A program made the translations under genes and the position numbers. Below the pieces are notes generated by a model. It was not told where the DNA came from. It was given only the letters and a program-made list of their open reading frames with translations, and made no database searches. A stretch of 64,000 nucleotides of DNA from contig NZ_JAFKFX010000029.1 in assembly GCF_017308075.1 (NCBI RefSeq), positions 124,001 through 188,000 of the forward strand, read 5' to 3'. The stretch comes from Allobosea sp. Lineage in GTDB: Bacteria; Pseudomonadota; Alphaproteobacteria; Rhizobiales; Beijerinckiaceae. Shown in pieces: positions 22,103 through 45,215 of the stretch; position 1 is the stretch's first letter; each line of letters starts with the position of its first letter.

Positions 22103-22189
22103 GCCCAGGTGGCGGAATTGGTAGACGCACCAGCTTCAGGTGCTGGCGCTCGCAAGGGCGTGGAGGTTCGAGTCCTCTCCTGGGCACCA
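22103..22189 (+). tRNA. tRNA-Leu (anticodon CAG)
   Basis: An 87-nt class II tRNA. The acceptor stem GCCCAGG / CCTGGGC, the anticodon stem CCAGC / GCTGG with loop TTCAGGT, a long variable arm, the T loop GTTCGAGTC and an encoded CCA are all visible. The 3' part is the likely attachment site of the element that follows. Confidence 0.95.
22165..22189 (+). other. probable left attachment site (attL) in the tRNA-Leu 3' end
   Basis: The integrase gene starts about 80 bp after the tRNA, the usual design for tyrosine-integrase elements that use the T-arm and 3' end of a tRNA gene. I did not find a second copy of the tRNA 3' segment in the window, so the right end should lie beyond 64 kb. Exact core borders are not determinable here. 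Confidence 0.5.
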
Positions 22190-22269
22190 CTCTTTTTCCT
22201 CAGCAGGAGAAAGAGTTACGGTTTTGTAAGGGCTTATTGGGTATCCGCTTTCACACAGCGGTTTCACAC

Positions 22270-23970
22270 ATGGCCCTTGCGATGCCCCGTCCCTTCGCTA
22301 CCAAGTCGGGATCTTACTACCTCAACGTTCGGGTGCCGAACGAGCTCCGCGAGGTCGCTCGCGGGCGTGCCGTGACGCTGCCGATCGCCGGCGAGTCGGT
22401 GACCGTCACTATCTCCGACAAGGTCTACGTCTCCTTGCGCACCAAGAGCGCAAGAGAGGCCAAGGAGCGGTTCCAGGCCGCACTGGGTCGGCTCCTCGCC
22501 TATTGGGATTCCCTTCGCACTCCTGAGCAGACGCTGACCCCGCTGCAGGTGAAGGCCCTCGCCGGCGAAACCTATCGCAAAGCGGTTGAGCGACTCGATG
22601 CCGACTTCGATTTCAACGACCGGATCGAAGCCTTCGTCCAAGAGTATCGCGATGCGACCCAATGGCATCTCGACAACGGCGTCGACGACCCCAAAGTGGC
22701 CGAGCGGATGGCATCGATCGAGATGCAGGACCCGCTCGCGCTACACGCCTACGCGCTTCGTCATGGCGACGGCGTCCTGAACCGGGATGAGATCGTCGAC
22801 GCTGCCTTCGGTGGCGAGGCGCGCCAGCTAGTCGCCGACAACCAGATGCAAATCGACCAGAAGTCGCTGGCGCGGCTGTCCAAGGAGCTCGTCAAGATCG
22901 GCGAAGCCTTCAGTGAACTAGCGATTCGCCGGCTTTCGAGCGCCGATCACTCCGATGACATCGGTAAGCACCTGCCGGCCTGGACGCCCCCCGCTCCGAC
23001 GACCGCCGCCACATCGAAGGCCGATCGAGAGCCTGAGTCGGTATCAGACCTCTACAAGCGCTGGTGCGAATATCAAACCGACAAGAAGGCGGCGAGTACC
23101 TTGCGCCGCTATGGCCCGTCGCTCGAATCGCTCGATCGCTTCTGGAAGGGCAAGGACTGGCGCCTCGTCAGTGGCGACGACATCTGGGATTGGGCCAACC
23201 ACCGCAAGGATGTCGACAAGATCGACCCGCGCACGATCAACCGCAACGACCTCGTTGCCGTCTCATCGATCTTCTCCTGGGCAACCACGCGGCAAGGCGG
23301 CCGCAGGCGCAGCGACAACCCCGCCCGCGACATCAAGCTCGACGTCGATCGCAAAACAACGACTCGCGAGAAGCACTTCGAGGACCACGAGGTGTCAGCG
23401 ATCCTGATGGCGGCGCGGAATGCGAAGCCGAGCCGTCGCTACCCGCGTGCATCCGCATCGCGCCGCTGGGCGCCATGGATCTGCGCTTATACCGGCGCCC
23501 GCATCCAGGAGGTCTGCTGGCTGAGCCGGCATGACATTCGCCAGGAGGGTGAGATCTGGGTGATCCATTTCCCAAAAACCAAGACGAATGTCGCAAGGAA
23601 GGTTCCCATGCATCCTGCGCTTGTCGAAGAAGGCCTTCTGGCCTTCTGGGAAAAGGCGCCTGCCGGGTTCCTGTTCGTGGGGGACGTGCCTCAAAAGGAA
23701 GGCGCAACGCGCAGCCAACAGGAGCAGCGCGCCAGCGAATTGGCCGAATGGGTTCAGGAGCAGGTCAAGCTCGAAGATGGCGTCAGCCCCAACCATGGCT
23801 GGAGGCATTTGTTCGTGACCCGCGCCGAGGAGGCCAACATCTCGAAGCGCTTCAGCAATGCGATCACCGGGCACAACCACGGCAAGGACGTCTCGGACGG
23901 CTATTTCCGAGGACGCATGTCGGCGCTGAAGGTCCGGATGGATCGGTATCCGCGCTACGTAATCGAATAG
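22270..23970 (+). CDS. site-specific tyrosine integrase of the mobile element
   Basis: A 566-residue phage-type integrase. The N-terminus (RPFATKSGSYYLNVRVPNELREVARG) is the arm-binding region often annotated as DUF6538. A SAM-like core-binding domain lies around residues 255-345 (VSDLYKRWCEYQTDKKAASTLRRY). The catalytic residues are Arg in YTGARIQEVCWL, His-x-x-Arg in NHGWRHLFVT, His in ITGHNHGKDV and Tyr in DGYFRGR. I use the ATG at 22270; a TTG at 22237 is also in frame. It should insert and excise the element at the adjacent tRNA-Leu. Confidence 0.88.
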   Translation: MALAMPRPFATKSGSYYLNVRVPNELREVARGRAVTLPIAGESVTVTISDKVYVSLRTKSAREAKERFQAALGRLLAYWDSLRTPEQTLTPLQVKALAGETYRKAVERLDADFDFNDRIEAFVQEYRDATQWHLDNGVDDPKVAERMASIEMQDPLALHAYALRHGDGVLNRDEIVDAAFGGEARQLVADNQMQIDQKSLARLSKELVKIGEAFSELAIRRLSSADHSDDIGKHLPAWTPPAPTTAATSKADREPESVSDLYKRWCEYQTDKKAASTLRRYGPSLESLDRFWKGKDWRLVSGDDIWDWANHRKDVDKIDPRTINRNDLVAVSSIFSWATTRQGGRRRSDNPARDIKLDVDRKTTTREKHFEDHEVSAILMAARNAKPSRRYPRASASRRWAPWICAYTGARIQEVCWLSRHDIRQEGEIWVIHFPKTKTNVARKVPMHPALVEEGLLAFWEKAPAGFLFVGDVPQKEGATRSQQEQRASELAEWVQEQVKLEDGVSPNHGWRHLFVTRAEEANISKRFSNAITGHNHGKDVSDGYFRGRMSALKVRMDRYPRYVIE

Positions 23971-24063: not shown

Positions 24064-24954
24064 TTACTTGATCGGGAGCGCCACGACGTAGCCCTGCCCA
24101 AGCGACTTGTAGCTGACCAGGGTCTTGCGGGACGCTGGATTGACAACCCAGTCGTGGATGATGACCTCGGCGATCCGTACGAGCCGATCGGCATCGTCGG
24201 TTTTCGGGCGGAAGAAATAAAACTCCTTGGCGACGCTCCAGCGAGCACTGTCCCCGAATCCATAGGACGTCCTGCGGCTGAACTCGGCGGGCGCGCTGCC
24301 GATCTGGGCGCAATGGCTGCGTCCCTCGGCCGTTTCCAGCCAGGCATTCAGAGAGGCATCATGCATACGCTGATGAAGCCGTTCCTCGAACTCGTCGCGC
24401 GAAAGGCCTAACGGAAGACGAACGAGCAGGCAGCGATTGCCGACGCTGACCGGAGAATCGGCCAGCGGCCCGCCAGCCGGCAAGATGTGTTGCAACATGT
24501 AATTGTCGAAGCCGCGGTCGGAACAGGGATAGCCGTCACGGCTGACGGTGACGCAGCCGTACCGATCCCGGTTCAGCTCGCGAAGCCGATCGGTCAGCTT
24601 AACCTGAGCGGTCACCGAGACCTTGTGAATCGCCGCGAACAGGCGACGCGCGACGCCGAGTAGTCCCGTGGAGACCTCCGGCATGCGATGATCCTCTCCA
24701 CAGCCGGCACAGTAGATATAAACCAGGGTCCCGGGCTGATAGGCACTCTGGAACGCCACGCTCTTGAACGCGCCGGTTGACAGCGACAGCAGGTTGAGGC
24801 CACCGATCCGCGGCCAACGCACCTCCCACCAATGCGTCACCGCGCCGGCGGAGCCGAGAGGAAGAAGCCTTTTGCCCGGCTGTAGGGGCGCCTTGGGCGA
24901 AGGGGGAAGCGCCCGAGCCGCTGAGCTCACTGGGCCGATTGTCGTGGTCTTCAT
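24064..24954 (-). CDS. unrecognised element protein with a conserved WPRIGG/YQPG/CGE core
   Basis: A 296-residue protein with no family I can name. Residues about 39-120 contain AVTHWWEVRWPRIGG, AYQPGTLVYIYCAGCGEDHRMPE and GLLGVARRLFAAIHKVSVT. A truncated paralog with the same segment exists at 33.66-33.97 kb. C-terminal half has RDRYGCVTVSRDG, NRCLLVRLPLGLSRDEFEERLHQRMHDASL and a basic/aromatic tail. Several Cys pairs (CAGCGE) could bind metal. The leader carries a GGGGGCATCCCCC hairpin near 24992-25004 and the palindrome array lies upstream. Confidence 0.65.
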   Translation of the reverse strand: MKTTTIGPVSSAARALPPSPKAPLQPGKRLLPLGSAGAVTHWWEVRWPRIGGLNLLSLSTGAFKSVAFQSAYQPGTLVYIYCAGCGEDHRMPEVSTGLLGVARRLFAAIHKVSVTAQVKLTDRLRELNRDRYGCVTVSRDGYPCSDRGFDNYMLQHILPAGGPLADSPVSVGNRCLLVRLPLGLSRDEFEERLHQRMHDASLNAWLETAEGRSHCAQIGSAPAEFSRRTSYGFGDSARWSVAKEFYFFRPKTDDADRLVRIAEVIIHDWVVNPASRKTLVSYKSLGQGYVVALPIK

Positions 24955-25091
24955 CGTATTACTTTCTCTATGGTCAGGAGTGGCTTCCCCCGGGGGCATC
25001 CCCCCTTCGAACCCTCGTGTTGTCTGCCGTTATGAGCCGGTCGCCTCGCGCCCCGACCCTCAACCTCTGTCCCCCGATCGCAGGGAAGGTA

Positions 25092-25295: not shown

Positions 25296-25310
25296 GGTGT
25301 TTCTTTCGAT

Positions 25311-25386: not shown

Positions 25387-25425
25387 CTTTGTCCAATTCC
25401 TTTCCTCGCCGCTCCCACGGGCCGC

Positions 25426-25592: not shown

Positions 25593-25620
25593 CACAGCAG
25601 GGAGCAACAGCCCTCAAGGT

Positions 25621-25917
25621 TCAGTAGGGAATCGGGGCGAGCATCGTCCGGTGATGCCGACCGGCCGCGATCGCGATGAACAGGACCGCGCTCATCTGCG
25701 CGCGCGCCATCACCTCGGGGTGGGTTGCGCCGAGGATGAGGTCGGCGTCGACCTCCCGTCGCGGCAGCGCGAGTTCGGCCAGCGCGAGGGGATGCTGCAG
25801 CATGGCGCCCTCCTGGGCTGCCATCATCTGGTCGCGCTCGGCCGGGCTGAGCCCGCCCTCGTCGAGACAGGTCGCGAAGGGTTCTCCACCTCGCCATACC
25901 GCTTATCCTCGACGCCG
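25621..25917 (-). pseudogene. degenerate gene fragment
   Basis: An open minus-strand segment codes for AVWRGGEPFATCLDEGGLSPAERDQ... then MMAAQEGAMLQHPLALAELALPRREVDADLILGATHPEVMARAQ...; an upstream in-frame stop cuts it off and the adjoining segment (MEAMMAGCAVSLFQASQAAS) is in another frame. It reads as protein-like sequence but has lost its start. Family unknown. Confidence 0.35.
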
Positions 25918-33281: not shown

Positions 33282-33968
33282 CTATTTGAGACCGCCGGGG
33301 TTGTTCGCTCGCCGGCGGAGGGCGGGATCAAGCCCGCCGATCCGAAGCGGGGCCTCGAAGCTGTCTTTGTGTCTCTCCTTGGAGAGTACAGTTCGAAAGT
33401 GCGGCCGGTACCGGCTGCGACTGCCTCCGCTATGGCCAGCCCGAGTCCGGCGCTTTCGCCTACGCGCGGCAGCATCCCGTGTCACCCCAAGCGCGCTCGC
33501 GATGAGCGGCGGAATCAGTCGCGTCATCCTTGCTAATCTGGAAGCCGGCGAGGTTCGTTCGGTCAGCAATGCCGAGACGTTGGCGGCGTATGCCAAGCTC
33601 AGCGGCCCCGCGATCATTGCTGCCGAAGGTCGCATATTCGCCCGGGCGAGCGCGTTCTCTGAGCCGGTAGCGGAGATCTTGAACAGCGGCATGGCGAAGC
33701 GGCGCGCCAGGCCATGCAGGCCGGTCGGCTGGTCGGGCGCCTTCAGCGTGTCGCCGCAGCCGGCGACATAGACATAGGCGACCTGGCCGGGCTGGTAGGC
33801 CTCGGCGAACTCGATATCGAGGAAGGCCCGCTCAGGCAACAGCGCGAGCTCCTCGCCGCCGATGCGGGGCCAGCGGGTATCGACATAGTGCGTGACGGCA
33901 GCCGTGCTGCCTTCTTCGCGGATGCGCCGCAGCGTCGTCGTCATGGTCTGGTCGGTGGGATTCGTCAT
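33282..33968 (-). pseudogene. truncated paralog of the 24064-24954 gene
   Basis: Residues 1-102 (to about 33663) match the 24.1-kb protein: AVTHYVDTRWPRIGG, AYQPGQVAYVYVAGCGDTLK, GLHGLARRFAMPLFKISATG. After that the frame goes into unrelated low-quality sequence, and the C-terminal two-thirds of the paralog is absent, so this is a 5' fragment. The leader upstream (GGGGGCATTCCCG on the plus strand near 34000) matches that of the full-length copy. It follows the AAA ATPase gene and marks the end of the array. Confidence 0.7.
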
Positions 33969-34021: not shown

Positions 34022-35218
34022 TCACTCTCGACCTTCTTTTCCTTTCGACATCGACCGGATGAACCCGATGGGCCGCCTCACGCCCTCCTTCCCCGCGAGC
34101 AGCACCTGTTCGGCCTTTCGGACATCGTCGGCGACGAGGTGCCGCCGGCCCTGCTCGCAAGCGAACCCCATGGCGATGTCCCAGAGGCGCGAGAGCGTGC
34201 GCGGATTGTGTCTGGCGGTGGCCTCGAACAACGCCATGCCCGGCTCGGCGAAACACTGTCCGACCCGCAGGTTCGCCTCGTGGAAGATGCTCTTCTGGAT
34301 CACCAGCATCTCGGCCGCCTTCTGCTCGACCTGGAATACGATCAGCCTGTCGACGATGCTTGCCGGCAAGGGATCGAGGCTATTGGCGGTCGCGAGCCAG
34401 AAGATGTGATCGGCGCGGATCGGGAGATCGACGAACTCGTCGACGAAGCGGGCGGCATTCTCGCGTTCGAGCAGCGAATGCAAGACGTTCTCCGGGGTCT
34501 CGCTGGGATTGATCGGCGAAGCCTTCTCGATCTCGTCGATGACGATGAGCGGACAGGCATGACTGCCCTCGATCAGGAGCTTGGCGACCTTGCCGGGTGA
34601 TGACGCCCGCCAGATCGGGGCGAGGCCGGAGAAGGCTGCGCCTCTGTCCGTCATCAGGTTCATCGCCATGACCTCGCTCGGCACGCCGAGCGCCCCGGCG
34701 AGCTTGCCGGCGTAGAAGGTCTTGCCGATCCCCGGCGGCCCGACGACCGCGGCGGGATCGAGCCGAAGCGGCGTGCCGGTCGCAAAACTCAGGCCCGCCG
34801 CCCTGACGATCCAGGCCGTGACCTCCCGGAACTGCGGGCAGATCACATCGAGACCGGCGAGGCGCGCGATCATGGCCTCATCGGGAATGACGAGCTTGCG
34901 CCAGGGGCCGCGCTCGTCGGACTGCATCCGGTTCCAGAGCTTGACCTGGCGCGCTTGCGCCGTGTCCTCGTCGCCGCCGTTCTCGGTCGGATCACCGACG
35001 AAACCGTCGCCATGCCCGAGACGGCGGGCGAGCCGATCGGCATCGTAGATCTCGATCGAGGGACCGGCCTGATCTGGCTCGTGGCGAGCAGGCTGCTCGA
35101 CAGACTGCGTGCCTCCGCCGTCGGGACGCTGGTCACGCAAATGAGCAAGCAGGAACTGAAGGTCGAGATGGCGCCGGTTCTCGTAGGCTTCAATGGGATC
35201 CTGAGGTGTGATGCTCAT
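34022..35218 (-). CDS. Lon-like AAA+ ATPase without a protease domain
   Basis: A 398-residue AAA+ protein. Walker A GPPGIGKT lies at residues 160-167, Walker B LIVIDE at about 224-229, sensor 1 is FWLATANSLDPLP, and an arginine-finger/lid region follows (ARHNPRTLSRLWDIAMGFACEQGRRHLVADDVRKAEQVL). The core resembles the ATPase of Lon, but the chain stops right after the lid, so no Ser-Lys protease exists. The first ~100 residues are polar and unassigned. The ATG at 35218 follows GTGAGG, which overlaps the stop of the 35227 gene, so it is translationally coupled to the last member of the helical paralog family. Confidence 0.8.
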   Translation of the reverse strand: MSITPQDPIEAYENRRHLDLQFLLAHLRDQRPDGGGTQSVEQPARHEPDQAGPSIEIYDADRLARRLGHGDGFVGDPTENGGDEDTAQARQVKLWNRMQSDERGPWRKLVIPDEAMIARLAGLDVICPQFREVTAWIVRAAGLSFATGTPLRLDPAAVVGPPGIGKTFYAGKLAGALGVPSEVMAMNLMTDRGAAFSGLAPIWRASSPGKVAKLLIEGSHACPLIVIDEIEKASPINPSETPENVLHSLLERENAARFVDEFVDLPIRADHIFWLATANSLDPLPASIVDRLIVFQVEQKAAEMLVIQKSIFHEANLRVGQCFAEPGMALFEATARHNPRTLSRLWDIAMGFACEQGRRHLVADDVRKAEQVLLAGKEGVRRPIGFIRSMSKGKEGRE

Positions 35219-35226
35219 GACCGGCC

Positions 35227-36168
35227 TCACAGCTCAACGCCGTCGAGGATGGTCAGGAAGCGTCCGCTCTGCTTGGCGATGCGGCGCCCGACCCCGAGCG
35301 CGATCTCGACCAGGGCGCGCATCGCGTCGGGGTCATGGGCGCGCTCGGTGATCAGGCGCTCCACCTCCATCTTCGCAATGAGATCGGCCGAGCTGCGCGC
35401 CGGCCAGAGTCCGATCCGGCAGAGCTTTGCATAGGCGAGGATGAGTGCGCCGCGGCGGGCGCCATACAGAAACGGCCAGGCATCGGCCGCCTGCGAGCGG
35501 ACATCGATCTGCTTGAGCAGCTTCCTGGCCCCATCAAGCAGAGCGTCGAGGTCGGGCGGGGCGTTGAACCAAGCCTCCAGCGCCGACGCATGCTCGAGGT
35601 GATGAACGCCGGGGCTCGTGCCGTCGCACGTCTCGGGCAGCGGCAGGACCGCGCCGCTGAACCGTTTCGCCGCGTTCTCCATGCCGGGCGGGATCCGCTT
35701 GCCGAGCGCAAGCTGCGGACTGCCATGGGCGAAGGACCGCCGCAGCGCCCGATCCATGAGTTCCGGATCATGAACACCACCGCCATTGCGATACTGCTTG
35801 TTCCGCTCTTTCGAGAGCATGGCCCGCGCGAAACGGTTCTCGGGCGAGCCCGACGGTACCAGCAACATCGCGATCTCGCCGGCATGGGCGAGGATAGCGA
35901 GCGCGTTGGCGGTATCGACACGCGCTCCCAGCTCCTCGGGATCCGCTTCGGCGAGCGCGAGGAAGCGCTCGTATTGCTGCGTATGAACAAGAGCCCTTCC
36001 GCGGAGGTCGAGGATCGGCGGCAGCCGCTCGAGCAGCGCGGTGAGACGCTTGAGATCGTCCGAGAGGTCGGGCACGAGGGCGTCGAACCCGGCGAGTTCG
36101 TCGATGACGGGCACGGTGTCGGTCGTGAAGACGAGATCGCGCAGGGACGGTGCGTTGTTGTCGGTCAT
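35227..36168 (-). CDS. array paralog A1: helical protein with PVIDEL/GRAL/WPARS motifs
   Basis: A 313-residue, mostly helical protein of unknown function. N-terminal half: VPVIDELAGFDALVP, ILDLRGRALVHTQQYERFLALAEADPEEL. C-terminal half: LEHASALEAWFNAPPDLDALL and LILAYAKLCRIGLWPARSSADLIAK. It aligns along its whole length with the 38305 protein, and its N-terminal half aligns with the 36318 and 40511 proteins. No catalytic motif or signal peptide is visible. Directly coupled to the AAA ATPase downstream. Confidence 0.7.
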   Translation of the reverse strand: MTDNNAPSLRDLVFTTDTVPVIDELAGFDALVPDLSDDLKRLTALLERLPPILDLRGRALVHTQQYERFLALAEADPEELGARVDTANALAILAHAGEIAMLLVPSGSPENRFARAMLSKERNKQYRNGGGVHDPELMDRALRRSFAHGSPQLALGKRIPPGMENAAKRFSGAVLPLPETCDGTSPGVHHLEHASALEAWFNAPPDLDALLDGARKLLKQIDVRSQAADAWPFLYGARRGALILAYAKLCRIGLWPARSSADLIAKMEVERLITERAHDPDAMRALVEIALGVGRRIAKQSGRFLTILDGVEL

Positions 36169-36186
36169 GATCTGAACTTGTCCTGA

Positions 36187-36258
36187 GGGGTCGGCCTATC
36201 CGCCCTTTCACCGTCTCCTCCTCGTCATGACGAAAGGCGCGCCACGTGGGCGCGCCTT
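36187..36258 (-). promoter_or_regulatory. composite leader of 35227 gene
   Basis: On the minus strand: perfect hairpin AAGGCGCGCC / GGCGCGCCTT (36234-36258), 28 nt, then a weak stem GGC / GCC and a GACCCC tract (36187-36192), 18 nt before ATG. The hairpin is also placed to end the 36318 transcript. Confidence 0.55.
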
Positions 36259-36317
36259 CCTGCCGCTCCAGGATGGATGCCGCGGTCCAGCCGTCAGCCG
36301 ATCTCGGCCAACACCGG

Positions 36318-37259
36318 TCAGGACAGCAGCCGGACCTCGTCGATGAACCGGCGCCGCGACCTGTGGAGATCGCCGAGGGCATCGCCGGCGAGGGCCGCGA
36401 AGGCGACGATGCTGCGCAGGCGCGGCTCGCCGAGACGCTCGGTGAGAGCGAGGGCCTTCTCCTTTATCGCCCGTCCATCGACAACGAGACCGGCATGGAG
36501 GCAGATCCGGGCGAGATCGCCGGCCGCGACCAGCGAGGCGCCCTGACGGGCGCGTTCGAGATGGTCGAGAGCCTCATGGCCAAGATCGCCCTCGTCGATC
36601 GCCAGGGTGAAGCGATCAGCGTCGTGGAGTTCGAGCGCGGCCCTCTGCGCCAAAGCCTCGAGCCGTGGCGGATGACGCAGGAAGGCGGTGAGGCTATGCG
36701 CCTGTTCGATCGCGAGGATGGTCGGTTCGCCCTCGCGCAGATCCTCTGTTCGGGGAATTGTCGCCGTCTCGATCACGAAGGCCTTGCGCTTGGCCTCGGC
36801 GATGTCGAAGCCTGCCGATCCGATCGTGAAGGCAAGTGCCGCCGTCTGCGCCATCGCCGCGTCGTCACCCTGCCGCAGCGAGGCATCGACGCTGTCGGCG
36901 ACCAGGGCGCGGGCGAGGACGTAATCGACGCCCTGCGGCGGGATGATCGCGATGGTGAGAGCCGAGGCGGCATTGAGCAGACACAGCGCCGTCAGCGCCT
37001 CGAGGAAACTGGAGACCAGGGCCGGCGGCGAACTCCCGGCGAGCGCGAGGAAGCGCTGGGTCTCGGCCGCGAAGCCGAGTGCCCGGCCGGCGACGTCACT
37101 CACCGGAGGAAGGCTGGTGACGAGATCGGCGTAGTTGCGCTCCCGGCTGCCCCCGCGAGGCAGGCGTCGTGTGAGGCCGTCGAGGTCGTCGATGACGGGG
37201 CGGAGATCGGGCTCGAGCGCGATGTCGGCGAGCGAGGAGTTGCTGATGGTGATCGACAT
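36318..37259 (-). CDS. array paralog B1: helical protein with PVIDDL/GRAL/RFLALA motifs
   Basis: A 313-residue protein; the N-terminal part reads LRPVIDDLDGLTRRLP, VSDVAGRALGFAAETQRFLALAGSSPP and ALTALCLLNAASALTIAIIPPQG. Full-length sister of the 40511 protein (GRALGF-x-x-ET-x-RFLALA; AFVIETATIP versus TFVLAGAVPP; LDHLERARQGASL versus RDRLERARSGAIL). The shared P-[VI]-x-[DE]-L-x-G and GRAL elements tie it to the A-type genes. Function unknown. I use the ATG at 37259 (MSITISN). Confidence 0.7.
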   Translation of the reverse strand: MSITISNSSLADIALEPDLRPVIDDLDGLTRRLPRGGSRERNYADLVTSLPPVSDVAGRALGFAAETQRFLALAGSSPPALVSSFLEALTALCLLNAASALTIAIIPPQGVDYVLARALVADSVDASLRQGDDAAMAQTAALAFTIGSAGFDIAEAKRKAFVIETATIPRTEDLREGEPTILAIEQAHSLTAFLRHPPRLEALAQRAALELHDADRFTLAIDEGDLGHEALDHLERARQGASLVAAGDLARICLHAGLVVDGRAIKEKALALTERLGEPRLRSIVAFAALAGDALGDLHRSRRRFIDEVRLLS

Positions 37260-37279
37260 GCATGGCCCACAGGGTTTTC

Positions 37280-37360
37280 GGGGGTGACCTCCCGTTGAGG
37301 TCGTTTCCTCCTCTCTCTTCCTCACGCCGACAGGTGCCGGCCGCCCGGCGTCACGGGCGG
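37280..37360 (-). promoter_or_regulatory. composite leader of 36318 gene
   Basis: On the minus strand: hairpin CCGCCCG / CGGGCGG (37341-37360), 39 nt, stem ACCTC / GAGGT with 5-nt loop, then CACCCCCGAAAACC (ending 37272), 20 nt before ATG. Confidence 0.6.
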
Positions 37361-37439
37361 TCTTCCAGTGCAGCAGCGCCACGGGACGCGCGCCGATTCC
37401 CAATCGGCTGACGCCTCCGGTCTCCGGCCCACAACGAAA

Positions 37440-37462
37440 CAGGCGCCCCGTGGAGGCGCCTG
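37440..37462 (-). terminator. terminator-like hairpin after 37539 gene
   Basis: Perfect 8-bp stem CAGGCGCC / GGCGCCTG with 7-nt loop, 77 bp downstream of the stop of the 37539 gene. Confidence 0.5.
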
Positions 37463-37538
37463 CCAAGTTCTCTCACGTGGCCGGCCCGGATAACGCAGGC
37501 CTGATCGTACGAGGTATTGTCGACGGTAGCGTCCTGCG

Positions 37539-37964
37539 TCATGCAACAGCGGAGCTGCACGCTTCCAGCTTGGATGCCAGCAGCGCCACCTTCGCCCGCT
37601 TCTCATCGAGGTCGTCCTCGATATCGCCGATGCTGGCCACGAGTTCCGTGATCTCGCCCTCCAGTTCGTACTTGGCCTCCCGCCAGTGCTCGTGGAGCTT
37701 CATTTCGAGCCCTTCGATGACGACGCACATCGGCTCGGCGAACGCCTCGCAGTCGTCGAGGTCGAGACAAGCTTCGTTGTATTCCTCCCGGGTCAGCTCA
37801 CGCACGCGATACTCAAAATCCCCAGCGGAATACATCGCGGCGATCTCAGCGTAGAGCGAGCGGCACTTTTCGGCTTCCGCCTTCGTACCCAGCGCGAAGA
37901 AGGCCCTCTCCAGCACGCTGTCGTCGATATCGAAATACAAATCCTCTTCGTTCCGATCAAACAT
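37539..37964 (-). CDS. acidic coiled-coil protein of unknown function
   Basis: A 141-residue, strongly acidic protein (MFDRNEEDLYFDIDDSVLERAFF...). The C-terminal third (EHWREAKYELEGEITELVASIGDIEDDLDEKRAKVALLASKLEAC) has a heptad pattern suited to a coiled coil. It is the one member of the array that is unrelated to the paralog family, and it has an A/T-rich upstream region instead of the repeated leader. No family recognised. Confidence 0.65.
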   Translation of the reverse strand: MFDRNEEDLYFDIDDSVLERAFFALGTKAEAEKCRSLYAEIAAMYSAGDFEYRVRELTREEYNEACLDLDDCEAFAEPMCVVIEGLEMKLHEHWREAKYELEGEITELVASIGDIEDDLDEKRAKVALLASKLEACSSAVA

Positions 37965-38304
37965 TTCTCAGCCTCCATTTGAACATACACAACCGCTTCC
38001 TGGGAGCGTCGTGAGGCAATTTCCCTTATGGTTGCCGTATCCGCCTCAAATCCTTCTATTTTTCATGATGGCGACGAGACGATTTTGTTTCAAGTTCTTT
38101 TTTTGTTCTCGTCGGAAAATTGCCTGACAGATGTTCAACTGGAATTAATTCAGAATTTTGAAGAAATGATCGCACATTGAATCCTGCCAGCCGGAGTGGA
38201 TAGCGTCCGCGGATCCAGTCTCCGGATTTTCCCTGCGGCAGGGTCAACACGAAAGGCGGCGCCGGGGGACGCCGCCTTGTGATGATCGCGATGAGACCGT
38301 GGGT
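37965..38304 (-). promoter_or_regulatory. A/T-rich intergenic region with promoter of 37539 gene and terminator of 38305 gene
   Basis: 340 bp without a gene. 38060-38180 is clearly A/T-rich (GATTTTGTTTCAAG, GGAATTAATTCAGAATTTTG) against the GC-rich surroundings, and is the best candidate in the array for a true promoter. The perfect palindrome GGAATTAATTC-type core near 38141 may be an operator. The hairpin at its right end is listed separately. Confidence 0.45.
38253..38278 (-). terminator. terminator-like hairpin after 38305 gene
   Basis: 9-bp perfect stem AAGGCGGCG / CGCCGCCTT with an 8-nt loop, followed on the minus strand by TTTCGTGTT. It starts 27 bp after the 38305 stop. Confidence 0.6.
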
Positions 38305-39255
38305 TTACAGTTCGCCAGCCGCGGCGGACATGAAGCGGTCGCTCTGGCGCGCGATGAGATCGCCGGTGTCGAGAGCAAGCAAGACCAGAGCCCGGAGATG
38401 GTCAGGATCGTTGCTGCGGAACGCAGCGAGAGATTTCACCATCGACTTCGTCTCCAGATCAGCCTCGCTCCGGGCTGGCCAGAGACCGACCCTGGCGAGG
38501 CGGGCATAGGCAAGCATGAGCGCAGCCCGACGGGCAGCGTCGACCATTTCGGCGGGATGATCTTCGTCCTGCGACCAGCGATCGCTCCGCTGCAGGAGTC
38601 CGTGCGCCTGCGTCAGGAGATCCGTCAGGTCGGGCGGCGCGACGAAATACCCTTCGAGGCTGCGCGCGTTCTCCAGCCGGTAGGCACCGGGCTCCCCCGG
38701 CCGGACACTGCGATCGTCGGTGGGCTCGGGCAGGATGGCGCCGACATAGCGCGCCATGGCGGTGACGGAATCCGAGAGGGTGGCTGCGTCATCAAGGCGG
38801 TATTCCTTGACGCGAGGCGGTGTCCCGCTGGCGAAACGCAACAGAAGATCGGCTTCACTCTTGTTCTTGCTGCGCCTTGCGGCACGTTTGTGCACGTGGG
38901 CGATCTCGGCCTGAGCCCAGCGGTCCTCCTCGGTCCGCGCCGGGGCGAGCATCTGTGCGAGATGGCCGGCACGTGCAAGGATCGTCAGCGCCCTCGCCGT
39001 ATCCAGGCGGGCCTCAAGGCCCTCCGGGTCATCGCCCATCAGGATGATGAAGCGGTCCATCTGCCTCTCATGCGTCAGGGCGCGGCCGCGGATGTCGAGG
39101 ATCGACGGCGTCTGGCCGCCGAGGATGGCGAAGCGTTCGATCTCGTCCGGCCCTTCGGGCAGGAGCCGTTCCAGCCCGGTCAGTTCATCGGTGATCGGGA
39201 AGGTGAGCGGATCGAGTTTCAGGTCGGACAGCGAGCTGGGCGTGCTGGAGGACAT
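38305..39255 (-). CDS. array paralog A2: helical protein with PITDEL/GRAL/WPARS motifs
   Basis: A 316-residue sister of the 35227 protein: FPITDELTGLERLLP, ILDIRGRALTHERQMDRF, DPEGLEARLDTARALTILARAGHLAQMLAP in the first half; LENARSLEGYFVAPPDLTDLL and LMLAYARLARVGLWPARSEADLETK in the second; identical end-plan ..ALxxGxxIAxQSxRFM. The basic insert HKRAARRSKNKSEAD (centre) is not in A1's equivalent. Its repeated leader and own terminator suggest separate regulation. Function unknown. Confidence 0.7.
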   Translation of the reverse strand: MSSSTPSSLSDLKLDPLTFPITDELTGLERLLPEGPDEIERFAILGGQTPSILDIRGRALTHERQMDRFIILMGDDPEGLEARLDTARALTILARAGHLAQMLAPARTEEDRWAQAEIAHVHKRAARRSKNKSEADLLLRFASGTPPRVKEYRLDDAATLSDSVTAMARYVGAILPEPTDDRSVRPGEPGAYRLENARSLEGYFVAPPDLTDLLTQAHGLLQRSDRWSQDEDHPAEMVDAARRAALMLAYARLARVGLWPARSEADLETKSMVKSLAAFRSNDPDHLRALVLLALDTGDLIARQSDRFMSAAAGEL

Positions 39256-39278
39256 GTTCGGTATTCTCTCGTTTCTCA

Positions 39279-39360
39279 GGGGTGAGCTGCTCCGGGCAGT
39301 CGCTTTCCTCCCTCTCCCCGCAACCAAACGAGGCGACGCCCCGGGGGGACGCCGCCTCGT
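39279..39360 (-). promoter_or_regulatory. composite leader of 38305 gene
   Basis: On the minus strand: hairpin ACGAGGCGGCG with imperfect partner CGTCGCCTCGT (39328-39360), 28 nt, stem CTGC / GCAG with 5-nt loop, then TCACCCCTGAGAAACG, about 23 nt before ATG. Confidence 0.6.
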
Positions 39361-39397
39361 GCGCGCTATGGTCCGCTATCGACAACGCGAATGTGGT

Positions 39398-40390
39398 TCA
39401 GACGATCTCGATCCAGTCGGTCGTGAAGAGCGCCTGATCATGCAGTCCGAGCCGGCGATGGACCCAGATCGCCTCGTCGACCAGGTGGCGAACGATCGCC
39501 TGCTGGTGCAGCGGGTCCGGGCGGCAGGCACGATCGTTGACGATCCGCGCGACGGCGCGCTTCTCGGCCATGTCCGCCCTGGAGCGCGCCGGCCAGATCA
39601 CCGCCTGGCAGGCGGCCAGGTAAGCCAGGATCTGAGCCCCCTCGGCGGCGAGCCGCAGGTCAAGGCTCTTGCCATCCTCATTCCTGCGCGCGAGATCGAA
39701 CAGGCGTTCCGCGGTCGCGAACATCGCGACGACGCGCTCGCGCAAGCCGCCGAAGTCGGGGCCGCTGCGGGCGAACGCGATCCACATCTCCGGGGCGAGG
39801 TCGAGAACCGGCTGGCCGCCACGGATCGGCAGAAGGTCGCGCAGATCGTACCGCCGGCGCGGCCAGACCGCGAGGTTGCGGTCGTCGGGACCGGGCGCCG
39901 GCGGCGCCGGCGGAACGGTCAGCTCGCCCACGTTGAACGCCGCCCGCATCACCCGGATGCGGCGTGCGGTCGTCGCGTCGAGCGACGCGACATAGTCGGG
40001 CTCCTGGTCGGTGCCGTACGGACCCCGCCCGTCCGCGAGGGCGCGCTTGGCATCGACCTCGTCGAGGCTGTCGGCCGGCCAGGCGCAGACCAGGCCGTCG
40101 CAGAGGAGCGCGGCGAGCTCCATGGCGGCCGCGATCGTTCCCGCCTCGCGATGCCGATCATCGGCATAGGCGACCCGATGGGCCTCGTGGTCGAGCTGCC
40201 GCGACACCCGCGCGGCCTCCTTGAGGTCGGGCCGGCTCCGGCGGAAGGCGATGAGATCTGCGAGCGTCGGATCCTCGCCGAAGCCGGAGGTCAGCACTTC
40301 GATCGGATCGCGGAAGCGCGTTCCCTCGCGAAGCGCGAGGCTGCTGGTCCTGGGCGGCGGCAGCCGGCCCTGATCGTTCTTCTTGGACAT
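39398..40390 (-). CDS. array paralog C: longer helical protein with two WPA-x-S repeats
   Basis: A 330-residue protein. Its C-terminal half aligns with the A-type proteins (PDFGGLRERVVAMFATAERLF, QILAYLAACQAVIWPARSRADMAEKRAV). Its own first half repeats the same helix plan (AMELAALLCDGLVCAWPADSLDEVDAKRAL), so the protein seems to be two copies of one module joined by a Pro-rich linker (TVPPAPPAPGPDD). It ends in DWIEIV. A deleted copy of this gene is present at 25.2-25.3 kb. No function recognised. Confidence 0.7.
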   Translation of the reverse strand: MSKKNDQGRLPPPRTSSLALREGTRFRDPIEVLTSGFGEDPTLADLIAFRRSRPDLKEAARVSRQLDHEAHRVAYADDRHREAGTIAAAMELAALLCDGLVCAWPADSLDEVDAKRALADGRGPYGTDQEPDYVASLDATTARRIRVMRAAFNVGELTVPPAPPAPGPDDRNLAVWPRRRYDLRDLLPIRGGQPVLDLAPEMWIAFARSGPDFGGLRERVVAMFATAERLFDLARRNEDGKSLDLRLAAEGAQILAYLAACQAVIWPARSRADMAEKRAVARIVNDRACRPDPLHQQAIVRHLVDEAIWVHRRLGLHDQALFTTDWIEIV

Positions 40391-40406
40391 GATGGGATCT
40401 TTCCAT

Positions 40407-40484
40407 GGGGGTGACAGCCATCTCGACTGCATCCCCGTCCCGGTCCCTGGAATCGCGAAGGGGCGCTCCGGGAGCGCCCCTTCG
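40407..40484 (-). promoter_or_regulatory. composite leader of 39398 gene
   Basis: On the minus strand: 14-bp hairpin CGAAGGGGCGCTCC / GGAGCGCCCCTTCG (40456-40484), 26 nt, stem CAGTC / GGCTG (one T-G pair) with 5-nt loop, TCACCCCC, then 16 nt to ATG. Shares GCGATTCCAGG and GGCTGT-x-ACCCCCAT with the copy at 25.3 kb. Confidence 0.65.
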
Positions 40485-40510
40485 TCTTCTCCGGCTCCGT
40501 GCTCGAACGC

Positions 40511-41452
40511 TCAGTCCCCCCGGGCCGCAATGGCGAGATCACGCGCTGTATTGCTGAGCTCGCCGATGACGCCGCCGGTCAGGGCGGCGAAGGCGACGAT
40601 GCTCTGCAGCCTCGCCTCGGGCAGGCGCGGCGCGAGTGCGAGCGCGCGCTCCTTCGCGGCCGCGCCTTCCACGACGAGGTCGGCATAGAGACAGGCGCGG
40701 GCGAGATCGACCGTCGCCAGCAGGATGGCTCCGCTGCGAGCGCGCTCGAGCCGATCGCGCGCTTCATGGCCAGGGTCACCGTCGGCGATCGCACGCGCGA
40801 TGCGGTCGGCATCGTCGAGCTGGAGCCCGGCGCGAGCGACGAGCGCCGCGACCTGTGGAAGGTCCTGCATGAAGGCGACCAGGCTCAAACCCTGCTCCAG
40901 GCCGACCATGGCGGGCACGCCCTCGCGGATGAGCGTGGCAGCGGGCGGGACGGCCCCAGCCAGCACGAAGGTCCGGCGCTGCTGCTCGCCGATCGCAATC
41001 GACAGCAGGCGGATCCCGAACGCGAGCGCCGCCGCTTCGACCATGGCGAGATCGTCGGACTGGCGGAGCCTGGAATCGACGCTCCCGGCGATGAACTCAC
41101 GTGCCAGCAGATCGTCTGCGGTTCGCGGCGGCATGATCGCCACCGCGATGACCGAGGCGGCGTTGAGCAGCGTCAGCGCGGTGAGCATGTCGAGGCAGGC
41201 GATCGCCTGCGGCTTTGCCGAGGCCTGGGCGAGCGCGAGGAAGCGCTCGGTCTCCTGCCCGAAGCCGAGCGCACGACCCGCCACAGTGCTGATCGGGAAG
41301 CGCTCGCCTACGAAGGCGGCATAGGCGCCGTCGCGATCACCGGAGTGAAGAAGCCTGCGCGCGATGCCGTCGAGCTCGTCGGTGACGGGCCGGATCACGG
41401 GCTCGAGCACAAGGTCGGCAAAGGTGGTGGCGGTCGGGTTGTCGGTCTGCAT
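40511..41452 (-). CDS. array paralog B2: helical protein, sister of 36318
   Basis: A 313-residue protein with the same length and plan as B1: IRPVTDELDGIARRLL, ISTVAGRALGFGQETERFLALAQAS, MLTALTLLNAASVIAVAIMPPRTADDLLAREFIAGSVDSRLRQSDD, HEARDRLERARSGAILLATVDLARACLYADLVVEG, RLQSIVAFAALTGGVIGELSNTARD. Predicted all-helical and soluble. Function unknown; the B-A order (B2, C, A2 and B1, A1) is repeated in the array. Confidence 0.7.
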   Translation of the reverse strand: MQTDNPTATTFADLVLEPVIRPVTDELDGIARRLLHSGDRDGAYAAFVGERFPISTVAGRALGFGQETERFLALAQASAKPQAIACLDMLTALTLLNAASVIAVAIMPPRTADDLLAREFIAGSVDSRLRQSDDLAMVEAAALAFGIRLLSIAIGEQQRRTFVLAGAVPPAATLIREGVPAMVGLEQGLSLVAFMQDLPQVAALVARAGLQLDDADRIARAIADGDPGHEARDRLERARSGAILLATVDLARACLYADLVVEGAAAKERALALAPRLPEARLQSIVAFAALTGGVIGELSNTARDLAIAARGD

Positions 41453-41471
41453 ATCGGATCCAGAGGTTTTT

Positions 41472-41541
41472 GGGGGTTACTGCCTCCGTGGCAGCGCCTC
41501 TGCGCTTTCCGTCCGAACGGCCGGCGTCCGGGACGCCGGCC
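41472..41541 (-). promoter_or_regulatory. composite leader of 40511 gene
   Basis: On the minus strand: 11-bp hairpin GGCCGGCGTCC / GGACGCCGGCC (41519-41541), 24 nt, stem CTGCC / GGCAG with loop ACGGA, then TAACCCCCAAAAACC, 19 nt before ATG. The hairpin begins 15 bp after the exonuclease stop. Confidence 0.65.
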
Positions 41542-41555
41542 TCTCTCTCTCTCCA

Positions 41556-42965
41556 TCATGCCGCCAATCGCTGGTGGTCGCTGCACTCGCGCAGCCAACG
41601 CTCGATCGCATCGAGATGGGCATGACGATCGGCATCCTGCGGATCGAGCGTGGCGCGCAGGTCCGCGACCTCGATGAGCGCCTTTGGCAGGGTCAGCCAG
41701 GGCACGTCCTCCTCGGTCGTCAGCCGCTCACGCAGCCAGTCGCGGCCCTTGCACCAGGCTTCGGGCGCGAGGCATTCCGGCGCCTCCAGAAACATCTGGC
41801 GGTTGGCGAAGGCCTGGAGGCGGACGTCCCCCATATGCTTCGTGAGCGCGCCCCTCTGATCCCAGGGCAGTTCGTGCCAGCGCTCGCAGACGCGAACGTC
41901 GGCATCCGACAGGAACCCGCCCGAGTACAGCGTGGCTTCCGGGAAGGGCGACGGCTCACGGCCAGCGAAGCGGTTCTTCAGCGCCGCGGTGAGATGGTGC
42001 CGGAAGGCTGGATGCTGGCGGATCATGCGGGCCCGGTCGTGGTAGACCGCGTCATCGAGCCGCTCGGCTGGGAGCGCATGCTGCGCGTCGTCCCAGCCGA
42101 ACAGGATCGGCTGCGAGTTCGCCTTCACCATCCGGATCGGCCGCGCGCCGGAGCGCGTCAGCAATGACGCGATCTCTTCCGCGGTACCGTCGAGATAGCT
42201 CGCAGGATCGATCGAAAGATCGGCGGTGGCCCAGGATGTCGCATTGTCGGGGTTCGGCATGATGCCGACGGCCGGCACCAGCGCCGAGTGACCACCAAGG
42301 CAGATGAGATCACCACGTGCTAGCAGCCGGATCGGTCCCGATTTATGGGCATTGGCGAGCATGAGTTCGACCGTCCGCGGTGCGCGCGCCTTCAGCAACC
42401 GAAACAGCGCGAGCGTGGCGCGGGCATCGAACAGCGCGTCATGCGCCTCGTCCTCGCCGAGCTGGATTCCATTGGCCCGGCAGACGGCGCCGAGCTTGAG
42501 CGAGCGCTTGCCGCTGCCGTCGACGGGGATCGTGATCGCGCCAGGTTCCAGTATGATCGCCGCCCGCAGCATGACCAGAAGATCGGCCCGCTTCAGGCCT
42601 GCTCCTTGCGTCGCATAGGGCGGCAGGAGATGGCTGAAGAAGGAGTGCCGCAGCACCTCCTCGTCATATTGCAAGGTGTTGTAACCGAGGATCGTCGCGG
42701 GCGACCACGCCCCGATCGCCCGGGCGATCTGGCCGAGCATGTCGAGGCTCGACATCGGCGCCTGCTCCAGCTGCTCCGGACGGACGCCGGTGGTCAGCAG
42801 CGCGCCGGGGCTCGGCACGATATGGGCCGGAAGGGCGCAGCGCAGCGAGAGCTCGCCGAGCGGGCGCAGTTCCTCATCCGTGTGGATGAGGGCGGCCTGC
42901 AAGGGCACGTTCCAGGCCGGATCGAGGCCGGTGGTCTCGAGATCGTAGATGATGAAGGCGGACAT
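41556..42965 (-). CDS. sbcB: exodeoxyribonuclease I (SbcB-like), element-borne
   Basis: A 469-residue 3'-5' ssDNA exonuclease. DEDDh residues: Asp/Glu in IIYDLETTGLD, Asp in LGYNTLQYDEEVLRHSFF, and His/Asp in AHDALFDARATLALF. The EXO1 SH3-like and helical C-terminal parts follow (IRMVKANSQPILF, FPEATLYSGGFLSDADVRVCERWHELPW). Length matches E. coli ExoI (475). Chromosomal SbcB is uncommon in alphaproteobacteria as far as I know, so a mobile-element copy is notable. I use the ATG at 42965 (MSAFIIYD). It lies 10 bp after the small 42976 gene and heads the array. Confidence 0.88.
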   Translation of the reverse strand: MSAFIIYDLETTGLDPAWNVPLQAALIHTDEELRPLGELSLRCALPAHIVPSPGALLTTGVRPEQLEQAPMSSLDMLGQIARAIGAWSPATILGYNTLQYDEEVLRHSFFSHLLPPYATQGAGLKRADLLVMLRAAIILEPGAITIPVDGSGKRSLKLGAVCRANGIQLGEDEAHDALFDARATLALFRLLKARAPRTVELMLANAHKSGPIRLLARGDLICLGGHSALVPAVGIMPNPDNATSWATADLSIDPASYLDGTAEEIASLLTRSGARPIRMVKANSQPILFGWDDAQHALPAERLDDAVYHDRARMIRQHPAFRHHLTAALKNRFAGREPSPFPEATLYSGGFLSDADVRVCERWHELPWDQRGALTKHMGDVRLQAFANRQMFLEAPECLAPEAWCKGRDWLRERLTTEEDVPWLTLPKALIEVADLRATLDPQDADRHAHLDAIERWLRECSDHQRLAA

Positions 42966-42975
42966 GGCGGCGATC

Positions 42976-43431
42976 CTACTGCACGCCGCCGGGGCCGGCA
43001 TCGTACCGCGCCTTGCGCAGTTCGATGCCGAGATCGACACCGTCGAAATGCATCGCCAACTCCACCATCGACGCCGTCCGCGAGCGCTCCATCTCGCCCG
43101 GCAGGAAGCTCATCATCTCGTAGATCTGGATCTTCTGTTCGAGCTCGGCCTCGTCACGTGCCGGAGCCTCGGCGATCAGCAGCGCGAAGGTCCGCGCCAT
43201 CGACCGCGCGCCCTCCGCCATCTGGCGGCCGCTCAGGCCACCGTGATCATCATGCGCGTGGTCGCCGTCATGATCGAGAAGCAGCGCATGGGCCAGCGCC
43301 GCCTGCCACATCGGAAACATCCGGGCGTGCTCGGTGCTGAGCCGATAGGCCCGCGCATAGCGTGCGAGGTCAGCGGCCGTCGGGCGCGCATCGTCCTCCG
43401 CGGTCGCGGCGCCGTCGTTCATCATACTCAT
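42976..43431 (-). CDS. small His/Asp-rich protein of unknown function
   Basis: A 151-residue protein upstream of sbcB with 10 bp between them, thus probably co-transcribed. It has LARYARAYRLSTEHARMFPMWQAALAHALLL, a histidine-rich loop DHDGDHAHDDHGG and a helical tail (MARTFALLIAEAPARDEAELEQKIQIYEMM). The His/Asp loop may bind metal. Its upstream region has an AACCCCCGGGAA element like the array leaders. Start at MSMMND (43431) or MMND (43425). Confidence 0.6.
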   Translation of the reverse strand: MSMMNDGAATAEDDARPTAADLARYARAYRLSTEHARMFPMWQAALAHALLLDHDGDHAHDDHGGLSGRQMAEGARSMARTFALLIAEAPARDEAELEQKIQIYEMMSFLPGEMERSRTASMVELAMHFDGVDLGIELRKARYDAGPGGVQ

Positions 43432-43871
43432 CGGTAGTCCGTTCCGGTTCCAGGACCCGGGACGGCTCACCTGCTCATTCCCGGGGGTTCCCGACACTGG
43501 GTTCCGGAATCCGCTCGCTTGCCTGACATCAGGCGAGGATCCGCCTCCGCCCGCTCCCGCTACGAAGGAGAAAGGGTGGCCCGTTGTTGACGCCTAGGTG
43601 GTCCTGTGTGGATGGCTCCCGCGTTGCAAGGGGGTCTGTGACAGTTTGGCGTGCTGGTCGGGTGCAGTCTTGTGTCCGGCCTGTTCGCGCGGTCATCGAC
43701 CGCTGGCCCTGATGGTTTCCGCGGATAAAGGTCCCATTCTGCTTTGCGGGCTTCGACGCCCTCGACATTCGGCGGGTTGTCCTCATCCCCGGTCAGACCG
43801 GTGCGCCATCATCTCACAGGGTCCTCGCAACCTCCTTCGCGCGGGTAGCGCGCTGATTGGGCTACTGATCC
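43432..43871. other. 440-bp non-coding junction between the array and IS110
   Basis: Contains the leader of the 42976 gene (GGGGGTTCCCGAC near 43483) and then sequence with no coding pattern I trust. Contains the array-side boundary of the IS110 element; the exact IS end is not visible. Confidence 0.4.
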
Positions 43872-44168: not shown

Positions 44169-45213
44169 GAGCCTCGGATTTGAAATCGGAATCTGTGGGA
44201 TTCCCTTGAGGGCGGCTTTGTGATTCACGGTTTTGGAGGTGGATCATGGGTCGCAGCTATTCGTCTGATCTTCGCGAACGGGTTGCCGGCTTCGTCGCGG
44301 CGGGGCATTCGCGTCGTGCGGCGGCGCGTCATTTCGGGGTGAGCGAGAGCTTTGCGGTAAAGCTGCTTCAGCGCGCGACCCGCCTGAAGACGTTGCGGCC
44401 GGCGCGGCAGGGACGTCCGCCCGGCAGCAGGCTGGACGCGCACGGCGCCTTCCTGGTGGCCCAGGTCGAGGCCACGCCCGACATCACCATGCCGGAGCTC
44501 GCCGCCCGGTTGGTCCAGGCGACGGGGGTGAGTGCGGCGCCGGCGGTTTTGTCGCGGTTCCTGTGCCGGCTGGGCTTCACATATAAAAAAAGCGCTGATG
44601 GCGTCGGAATGCGCACGCGCTGACATCGCTGAGCAGCGCACCCTCTGGATCACGCGCCGCCAGCCGCTGATGCGGCTCGAGCCTCATAGGCTCGTCTTCA
44701 TCGACGAGACCGCGATCACCACCAAGATGGTCCGGCTGCGCGGCCGCAGCCAGCGCGGAGAGAGGCTGCCCGCCTCGGCGCCCTTCGGCCATTGGCGCAC
44801 CCAGAGCTTCATCGCGGCTCTGCGCTGCCACGGGCTGACCGCGCCGTGGATCGTCGACAAGGCCATGGATCGCGTCGCCTTCGATCTCTACATCGAGACC
44901 CAGCTCGCGCCGACGCTCTCGAAGGGCGACATCGTCATCCTCGACAATCTCGCCGTCCACAAAAGCGACCGCGCCGCCCGATGCCTTGCCGAAAGAGGCG
45001 CCTGGTTCCTCTTCCTGCCGCCCTACAGCCCGGACCTGAACCCAATCGAGATGGCCTTCGCAAAGCTCAAGGCCCATCTCAGGCGCAGCGCCGCAAGAAC
45101 ATTCGACGCCCTCTGGAAGGCCGTCGGAGACATCTGCGAGATCGTCACACCAGCCGAATGCAGAAACCTCTTTAGACACGCAGGATATGCGTCAGATTAA
45201 ACGTCCGACGCTC
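44169..45213 (+). mobile_element. IS630-family insertion sequence inside IS110
   Basis: About 1045 bp, flanked by the TA target duplication typical of IS630. Ends: GAGCCTCGGATTTGAAATCGG on the left and, reverse-complemented, GAGCGTCGGACGTTTAATCTG on the right, giving imperfect inverted repeats. It carries one transposase in two overlapping frames. Confidence 0.85.
44246..45200 (+). CDS. IS630 transposase expressed by frameshift (OrfA/OrfB)
   Basis: OrfA (44246-44623) encodes the HTH domain MGRSYSSDLRERVAGFVAAGHSRRAAARHFGVSE. OrfB (from 44532) encodes the DDE domain: Asp in RLVFIDETAI, Asp in IVILDNLAVHKS, Glu in DLNPIEMAFAKLK. The frames meet at a run of seven A (44585-44591); slipping to the +1 frame there would join FTYKK to KKALMASECARAD. 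Programmed frameshifting is known in this family. Alternatively one base was lost or gained and the gene is dead; the intact DDE triad favours an active element. Confidence 0.82.
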
Positions 45214-45215
45214 TA

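Follow-up and report, generated by a model that had tools for sequence, protein, structure and literature searches.

Gene content of the operon

We analysed a stretch of 64,000 nucleotides, hereafter the window, from Allobosea sp. of the Beijerinckiaceae (assembly GCF_017308075.1, contig NZ_JAFKFX010000029.1, positions 124,001 to 188,000), and in it an operon encoding five helical paralogs together with an exonuclease I (ExoI) and a Lon-like AAA+ ATPase. An earlier reading made from the letters of the window alone, here called the sequence-only reading, had singled out these genes as an undescribed array. Their open reading frames (ORFs) are all present on the minus strand at the positions given below. 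In order of transcription the operon comprises u, ExoI, A1, B, C1, an orphan ORF, A2, C2, the ATPase and a truncated d. The sequence-only reading had passed over u, the truncated d, the orphan ORF, a tRNA-Leu gene with its integrase, and the remnant of a second copy. In what follows L numbers denote the sequence stretches analysed, G numbers the genomes, and C numbers after a colon the contigs within a genome.

22103..22189, plus strand: tRNA-Leu(CAG), probable attachment site (ARAGORN)
22237..23970, plus strand: tyrosine integrase with DUF6538 and Phage_integrase domains (Pfam), type F0
24064..24999, minus strand: full-length d of the remnant second copy, with 74% identity to its counterparts in L055 and L067 and 71% to the one in L056; AlphaFold2 predicted local distance difference test (pLDDT) 83
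25624..25902, minus strand: degraded remains of an A-type helical paralog from the second copy (41 bits; the profile is matched in its C-terminal part alone)
33285..33944, minus strand: d of the main copy, truncated, its family similarity ending about half way
34022..35230, minus strand: Lon-like AAA+ ATPase without protease; it has the Walker A and B motifs, and the aromatic pore-loop position of Lon is occupied by tryptophan
35227..36168, minus strand: helical paralog C2, adjoining the ATPase; AlphaFold2 pLDDT 89.3, predicted template modelling score (pTM) 0.90
36318..37259, minus strand: helical paralog A2 (ORF open to 37466)
37539..37964, minus strand: orphan ORF of 141 residues within the array
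38305..39255, minus strand: helical paralog C1 (ORF open to 39327)
39398..40390, minus strand: helical paralog B (ORF open to 40432)
40511..41452, minus strand: helical paralog A1
41556..43040, minus strand: exonuclease I, SbcB-like, DEDDh type, catalytic residues intact
42976..43497, minus strand: u, a conserved small protein and first gene of the operon, overlapping the ExoI start

The kinship of the five helical proteins, first proposed from shared motifs, is borne out both by BLASTP among the window proteins and by iterated profiles. A1 and A2 are 52% identical (1e-92), C1 and C2 41-42% (1e-60 to 1e-69), and the A and C lineages about 28% (1e-12 to 1e-19), while B is joined to the others by its last ~80 residues only (38.8%, 1e-10). 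Profiles iterated from each of the five reach one common set, with 138-140 matches each. The N-terminal motif is present, but by eye it reads P-[VI]-[IT]-D-[DE]-L-x-G and is thus one residue longer than first written. The motifs GRAL and [LI]WPARSxAD do occur in four and three of the window proteins, respectively, but are not family-wide: among 127 paralogs GRAL was counted in 14, WPAR in 45 and the full [LI]WPARSxAD in 5.

In a tree of 125 rows, built by a quick method with SH-aLRT support and accompanied by long-branch warnings, the paralogs form the deep clades B (52), A (33) and C (39), plus one long branch. The sub-clades mostly track array position, and for this reason the duplications look old, as do the three lineages A, B and C. 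The median ratio of nonsynonymous to synonymous substitution rates (dN/dS) was 0.20 for the ATPase, 0.21 for ExoI, 0.24 for u, 0.23 for d, 0.26 for C, 0.24 for B and 0.26 for A, with a maximum of 0.51, over 38-127 non-independent pairs per family at 70-97% identity. Judged by these ratios, the operon genes are under purifying selection. The idea that the paralogs are recognition subunits under diversifying selection was dropped, being unsupported by dN/dS (paralog medians of 0.24-0.26 versus 0.20-0.24 for the other genes) or by the tree with its three old lineages.

Profile searches with the paralogs gave no unrelated known families. Pfam gave nothing above noise for u, the paralogs and d, and at the limits used these proteins were likewise unmatched in NCBIfam, PHROGs and PADLOC. 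The small protein u has 19 invariant columns in 22 aligned copies. The AlphaFold2 model of C2, made from 73 aligned rows, is confident and all-helical, with 12 helices, and Foldseek returned no significant match for it (best E 0.17 in the PDB and 0.16 in BFVD), so that the modelled fold appears to be new against these two libraries. For d, the best Pfam match in 25 members had an E of 0.14, and the best PDB fold match of its model an E of 2.5. A likeness of d to GIY-YIG or T5orf172 nucleases, seen by eye only, was rejected as unsupported by profiles or fold, and a T5orf172 search of six genomes did not return d.

The two enzymes were correctly recognized in the sequence-only reading. ExoI matches NCBIfam exodeoxyribonuclease I (1.8e-53; 181.8 bits, under the cut-off of 260) and Pfam Exonuc_X-T_C (PF08411, 7.6e-17). 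Both the DEDDh residues and the C-terminal exonuclease I domain are present, and the catalytic D, E, D, H and D are identical in all 39 aligned copies. It also matches the PADLOC model RTasSbcB, the SbcB protein of DRT systems (1.1e-75), and is the sole operon protein with a strong PADLOC match; eight proteins besides ExoI and the orphan ORF gave none at E 0.1. The enzyme shares the DEDDh residues and the Exonuc_X-T_C domain with SbcB and with the SbcB of DRT systems. In contrast to SbcB it stays under the NCBIfam equivalog cut-off, and unlike in DRT systems the other operon proteins match no reverse transcriptase.

The ATPase matches Pfam AAA (4.8e-11). Lon models of Pfam and NCBIfam cover residues 162-302 of its 402 only, which is the AAA region, and no protease domain was found with them. 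This region aligns to Lon (profile positions 148-304, E 9e-36 to PDB 7ksl). W207, invariant in 27 of 27 sequences, aligns with the pore-loop aromatic residue of human Lon. The likeness to Lon protease thus lies in the AAA region and the pore-loop position, whereas the protein differs from it in its length of ~400 residues, its lack of a protease domain and its unmatched N-terminal part. At the junction of C2 and the ATPase, noted earlier as translational coupling, the genes overlap by the 4 bases GTGA, which hold the first possible ATPase start; an in-frame ATG follows.

Recurrence of the operon in Bosea islands

ExoI, the paralogs and the ATPase recur together, so that the array passes the test by which the sequence-only reading would have been refuted. 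Among 43 mapped stretches, 34 hold u, ExoI and the ATPase, each with at least one paralog and all in the genus of the window (Bosea); d is present in 33 of the 34. The number of paralogs in these stretches is one (1 stretch), two (9), three (9), four (8), five (6) or six (1). With X for ExoI and T for the ATPase, the common gene orders are uXBBCCTd (5), uXATdAB (4), uXBABCCTd (3) and uXTABd (3), the order of the last genes of the operon being variable. The remaining nine stretches are partial: they hold u and ExoI only, lack u and ExoI, or are cut by a contig end. In L068, ExoI is split across two frames. At E <= 1e-20 the ATPase was found in 26 of the 67 genomes of the genus, at up to five places per genome, and ExoI in 26 of the 67, with 24 genomes in common. 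Three ExoI matches (30-35% identity) stand without other operon genes.

Some partial copies are worth describing. At one tRNA-Met, L157 (G052:C21:521000-540900), which is among the 34, carries tandem copies of the operon, of which the tRNA-proximal one lacks u and ExoI. The sequence read from G001 contains two u-ExoI pairs that have no ATPase (L147, G001:C1:5312000-5331000; L148, G001:C1:5466000-5485000) and two parts with an ATPase but neither u nor ExoI (L071, L072), as if copies had been split. A lone B-type paralog in L173 (11661-12653; G064:C18:52000-71900), with a protein 34% identical to the window integrase ~3 kb away, is perhaps the remnant of an island.

In an order-wide sample of 397 genomes (341 good), with 5 or 9 candidates per genome scored and distant relatives thus open to being missed, the paralog and u profiles matched only the window's own genome; three sampled genomes of the same genus gave no paralog or u match. 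Distant ATPase relatives outside Bosea (L010-L018, L019-L023) have no other operon gene in the fetched stretches, leaving out the IMG/VR loci L080-L085. One relative, at 34% identity on the Acidovorax sp. T1 plasmid p1-T1 (L020 9452-12461), is separated by one small gene from a MobA/MobL relaxase gene, and its stretch contains no paralogs or ExoI. A lone relative of d (34%) was seen on the Bosea sp. NBC_00550 plasmid pNBC550 (L086 11794-12657), near repABC and a site-specific integrase. L006, from a metagenome-assembled genome named Beijerinckiaceae, was discounted as evidence for occurrence outside Bosea, as its contig is equal in length to G031:C9, of the window's genus. An origin from phages or plasmids was also rejected: u and the B paralog had no match in 72,556 plasmid records, and u had none in IMG/VR.

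Beyond the last gene of the operon, a recombinase is found in 32 of the 41 ATPase-bearing copies (27 tyrosine and 5 serine, two classes unrelated to each other; own profiles, E 1e-4), and on the recombinase side of 25 of these 32 there is a tRNA gene for Leu, Arg, Met, Glu, Gly, Gln or Ser. Pfam confirmed six representative recombinases; one tyrosine type (L068) was below the cut-off. In the nine copies without recombinase, between 23 bp and 6 kb of sequence remain at this place, and for L160 the integrase lies just outside the stretch. Integrases of the window type (at least 49% identity, at least 400 residues) number 12 in the 67 genomes, and 11 of them adjoin an operon copy, which in two cases is without u and ExoI (L165, L071). 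The serine recombinase of L060 has two full close relatives, both with an operon copy. This setting in mobile elements suits both DNA processing during transfer and inter-element conflict, two of the roles considered in the sequence-only reading.

Repeats of the tRNA end at the u side or the far side, sought in 14 regions, bound an operon-bearing island of 31 to 92 kb in six (50 bp in G020, 47 in G015, 30 in G049, 19 in G050, 18 in G018 and 17 in G037). The ATPase and paralogs are present in all six islands, and the u, ExoI and d clusters in five: the G015 island is without u and ExoI, and d of G018 was dropped by the ORF filter but seen in the repeat analysis. Families outside the operon occur in at most four of the six, those in four looking by eye like LysR and ABC types, and the cargo appears by eye to be largely metabolic.

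Two relaxase profiles gave 46 matches in 20 genomes, three of them below the cut-off. Within 60 kb, 17 of 45 copies have a relaxase towards u and 2 of 45 have one towards d, compared with ~1.1 per side expected from relaxase density. In L065, L155, L156 and L160 relaxase domains are encoded directly upstream of u. Long MobA/MobL-domain proteins just upstream of u (L160 13274-15835, L166 4711-7251, L155 6342-8309) perhaps form a relaxase sub-family of their own. Among 11 genomes, several of them drafts, VirB4 (PF03135) was found in 2 and the coupling protein (PF02534) in 6, with no match to either within 60 kb of any copy on the same contig. A conjugative element was therefore rejected, no secretion genes having been found near a copy in these 11 genomes.

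A proposed role in island DNA handling or defence

Mobilizable islands are usually pictured as a recombinase, a relaxase and cargo. The best conserved part found here is neither recombinase nor relaxase: it is an operon, encoding largely undescribed proteins, that has been retained across swaps of recombinase class and relaxase family. The operon is conserved, it lies between recombinase and tRNA gene on one side and relaxase and cargo on the other, the motifs of its ExoI and ATPase are intact, and its genes show purifying selection. We infer from this a function either in the handling of island DNA or in defence. Our own reading, for which we see an even chance, is that the operon would be the core DNA-handling module of a family of Bosea islands, tRNA-inserted and in part mobilizable.

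Under this DNA-handling reading, the A, B and C proteins would be distinct subunits within a single complex. The ATPase ring, of the Lon type with a pore tryptophan and without protease, would remodel this complex or other DNA-bound proteins, and ExoI would trim 3' single-stranded ends. The assembly of the paralogs in one ATPase-driven complex, a multi-subunit machine as in the sequence-only reading, and its action on DNA are inferred. Their joint role could be the processing of the island's own DNA in excision, in transfer through a helper secretion system or in establishment in a recipient. More tentatively, A, B and C could constitute a new heteromeric DNA or nucleoprotein machine, with a new all-helical fold and a protease-less Lon-type ring coupled to exonuclease I, on which the island family depends whatever its recombinase or relaxase. 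If this were true, it would represent a step of transfer or establishment so far undescribed for mobilizable elements. Were the operon to serve transfer or establishment at all, it would supply these elements with a missing function.

The islands resemble integrative and mobilizable elements (IMEs) by the recombinase at one end, the tRNA attachment site, the relaxase near some copies, the variable cargo and type IV secretion genes not found nearby in the 11 genomes. A recombinase at the attachment site, as in IMEs, is found for the operon family, and in the window in the form of the tRNA-Leu and integrase, with the far repeat not found there. Type IV secretion genes within the element, which would define an integrative and conjugative element, were not found in the 11 genomes. 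What sets the islands apart from IMEs is the conserved operon of ExoI, Lon-like ATPase and helical proteins, which persists when recombinase and relaxase change. We know of no such core in described IMEs, and none appeared in the titles and abstract beginnings of the literature searched, where no description of the operon was found either; PMC10413263, in the part covered, is unrelated to it.

The ssrA-specific islands of Dehalococcoides are also comparable. According to the portion of the report consulted (PMC3146451), a syntenic 'integration module' lies beside the integration site, the cargo varies, and the islands are proposed to be mobilizable and to accrete in tandem. That module consists of two serine recombinases (dsiA, dsiB), parB and mom, with the single target gene ssrA. 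To the extent of that portion, the Bosea islands are alike in being characteristic of one group, in the syntenic module by the integration site, the varied cargo, the proposed mobilizability and the likely tandem accretion, and unlike in their other genes, their tyrosine as well as serine recombinases and their seven kinds of tRNA gene.

Several observations weigh against a core module of mobilizable islands. The copies were located by means of the ATPase and ExoI, so the presence of the operon in islands is partly by construction, and only the recombinase searches escape this. In those searches, the twelfth long integrase match (G009:C50, L171) has no operon copy within 16 kb, 11 shorter pieces (at least 49% identity, below 400 residues) were left out of the count, and a broken serine recombinase (G056, no ATPase found) and a piece of 113 residues (G024) lend no support. 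Two of the 17 u-side relaxases rest on matches below the Pfam cut-off, and 28 of the 45 copies have no u-side relaxase within 60 kb, some of which may be explained by contig ends and profile sensitivity. In the window's genome both copies are without a u-side relaxase at up to 60 kb, and VirB4 or the coupling protein were also unmatched. Finally, when G020 and G015, both at tRNA-Arg, are compared, homology reaches the tRNA side and resumes 21-23 kb past the far repeat, and the comparison of G018 and G050 gives a similar far-side result. Because far-side homology resumes only beyond the repeat, the outer island ends are approximate and tandem islands are likely.

A further objection is that known defence systems adjoining u suit a serious rival, in our estimation possible though less likely than the DNA-handling reading, in which the operon is an island-borne system for defence or exclusion. 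Here the helical proteins would sense or bind incoming DNA and the ATPase would power a conformational change, while ExoI, possibly together with d, would degrade the single-stranded DNA of a phage, a plasmid or a competing island. Directly upstream of u in L055 are the Gabija genes GajA and GajB (3e-69, 7e-58), and genes upstream of u encode DISARM DrmD in L069 (3e-293), CBASS TRIP13 and SAVED in L068 (1e-132, 2e-33) and a GajB-like helicase region in L067 (5e-72), with weaker SMC-like (L053) and PHP-type (L004) matches. This PADLOC scan took ten genes of nine loci chosen by eye, three of them unmatched, and speaks to occurrence, not frequency. The match of ExoI to the SbcB model of DRT systems and the patchy distribution among species, with several copies per genome, also favour defence. 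However, PADLOC at E 0.1 matches none of the paralogs, u, d or the ATPase, the operon holds its place by the recombinase while the neighbours change, and no diversifying selection is seen in dN/dS. The finding of the operon in a single genus would moreover be unusual for a mobile defence system. If the operon did serve defence, the recombinase end of these islands would hold a fixed system that has not been described, in some islands alongside genes of Gabija, DISARM or CBASS. In either reading, the searched libraries contain no described relative of the families of u, the helical proteins and d.

The constant position of the operon at the recombinase end, together with the 28 of 45 copies near which no relaxase was found, could mean instead that it only stabilises the island, by addiction or by maintenance of the excised circle, with no part in transfer or defence. 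This is improbable, as no toxin, antitoxin or replication initiator family is found among the operon proteins, and usual addiction modules are far smaller than the operon. Very unlikely is the idea that the islands are phage satellites whose operon aids packaging by a helper phage. The presence of an integrase, the conjugation apparatus not found nearby and the finding in a single genus would fit, but the islands measure 31-92 kb and their cargo, judged by eye, is largely metabolic, relaxases lie near 17 of 45 copies, and the operon proteins have no structural PHROG match. In IMG/VR, u is unmatched and only weak ATPase relatives are among the matches listed.

The island of the window

The integrase of the window is located 9 kb from the main operon copy and adjoins the remnant copy. 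L067 (G055) shares the tRNA-Leu and has an integrase 87% identical to that of the window, and on this ground the remnant at 24064-25902 is probably the decayed rest of an L067-like copy. From this arrangement of genes, it seems that one site has accumulated two operon copies by accretion. A far attachment repeat of the tRNA-Leu region was not found in the window, where the only match was one of 13 bases at chance level, and for this reason the island is not delimited on its far side. Directly upstream of u, at 44246-46004, are transposase genes resembling by eye those of the insertion sequences (IS) IS630 and IS110; they may hide this end.

The main copy itself looks mosaic. In the tree, A1 and B group with L064, L070 and L162, and C1 with L070 and L162. 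ExoI is nearest to the same L064, L070 and L162 (81-85%), and the ATPase is nearest to other copies (77-78%), with 73, 37 and 33% identity to L064, L070 and L162. The orphan ORF at 37539-37964 sits near the junction of the two mosaic halves. It has no relative among 73 sequences searched, no Pfam match and one weak PADLOC match (E 0.012). Between the remnant and the main copy lie genes that look by eye like chemotaxis receptors (26426-28264, 29618-31084 and 31317-32807), and among them, at 28736-29573, an element that by eye resembles IS3.

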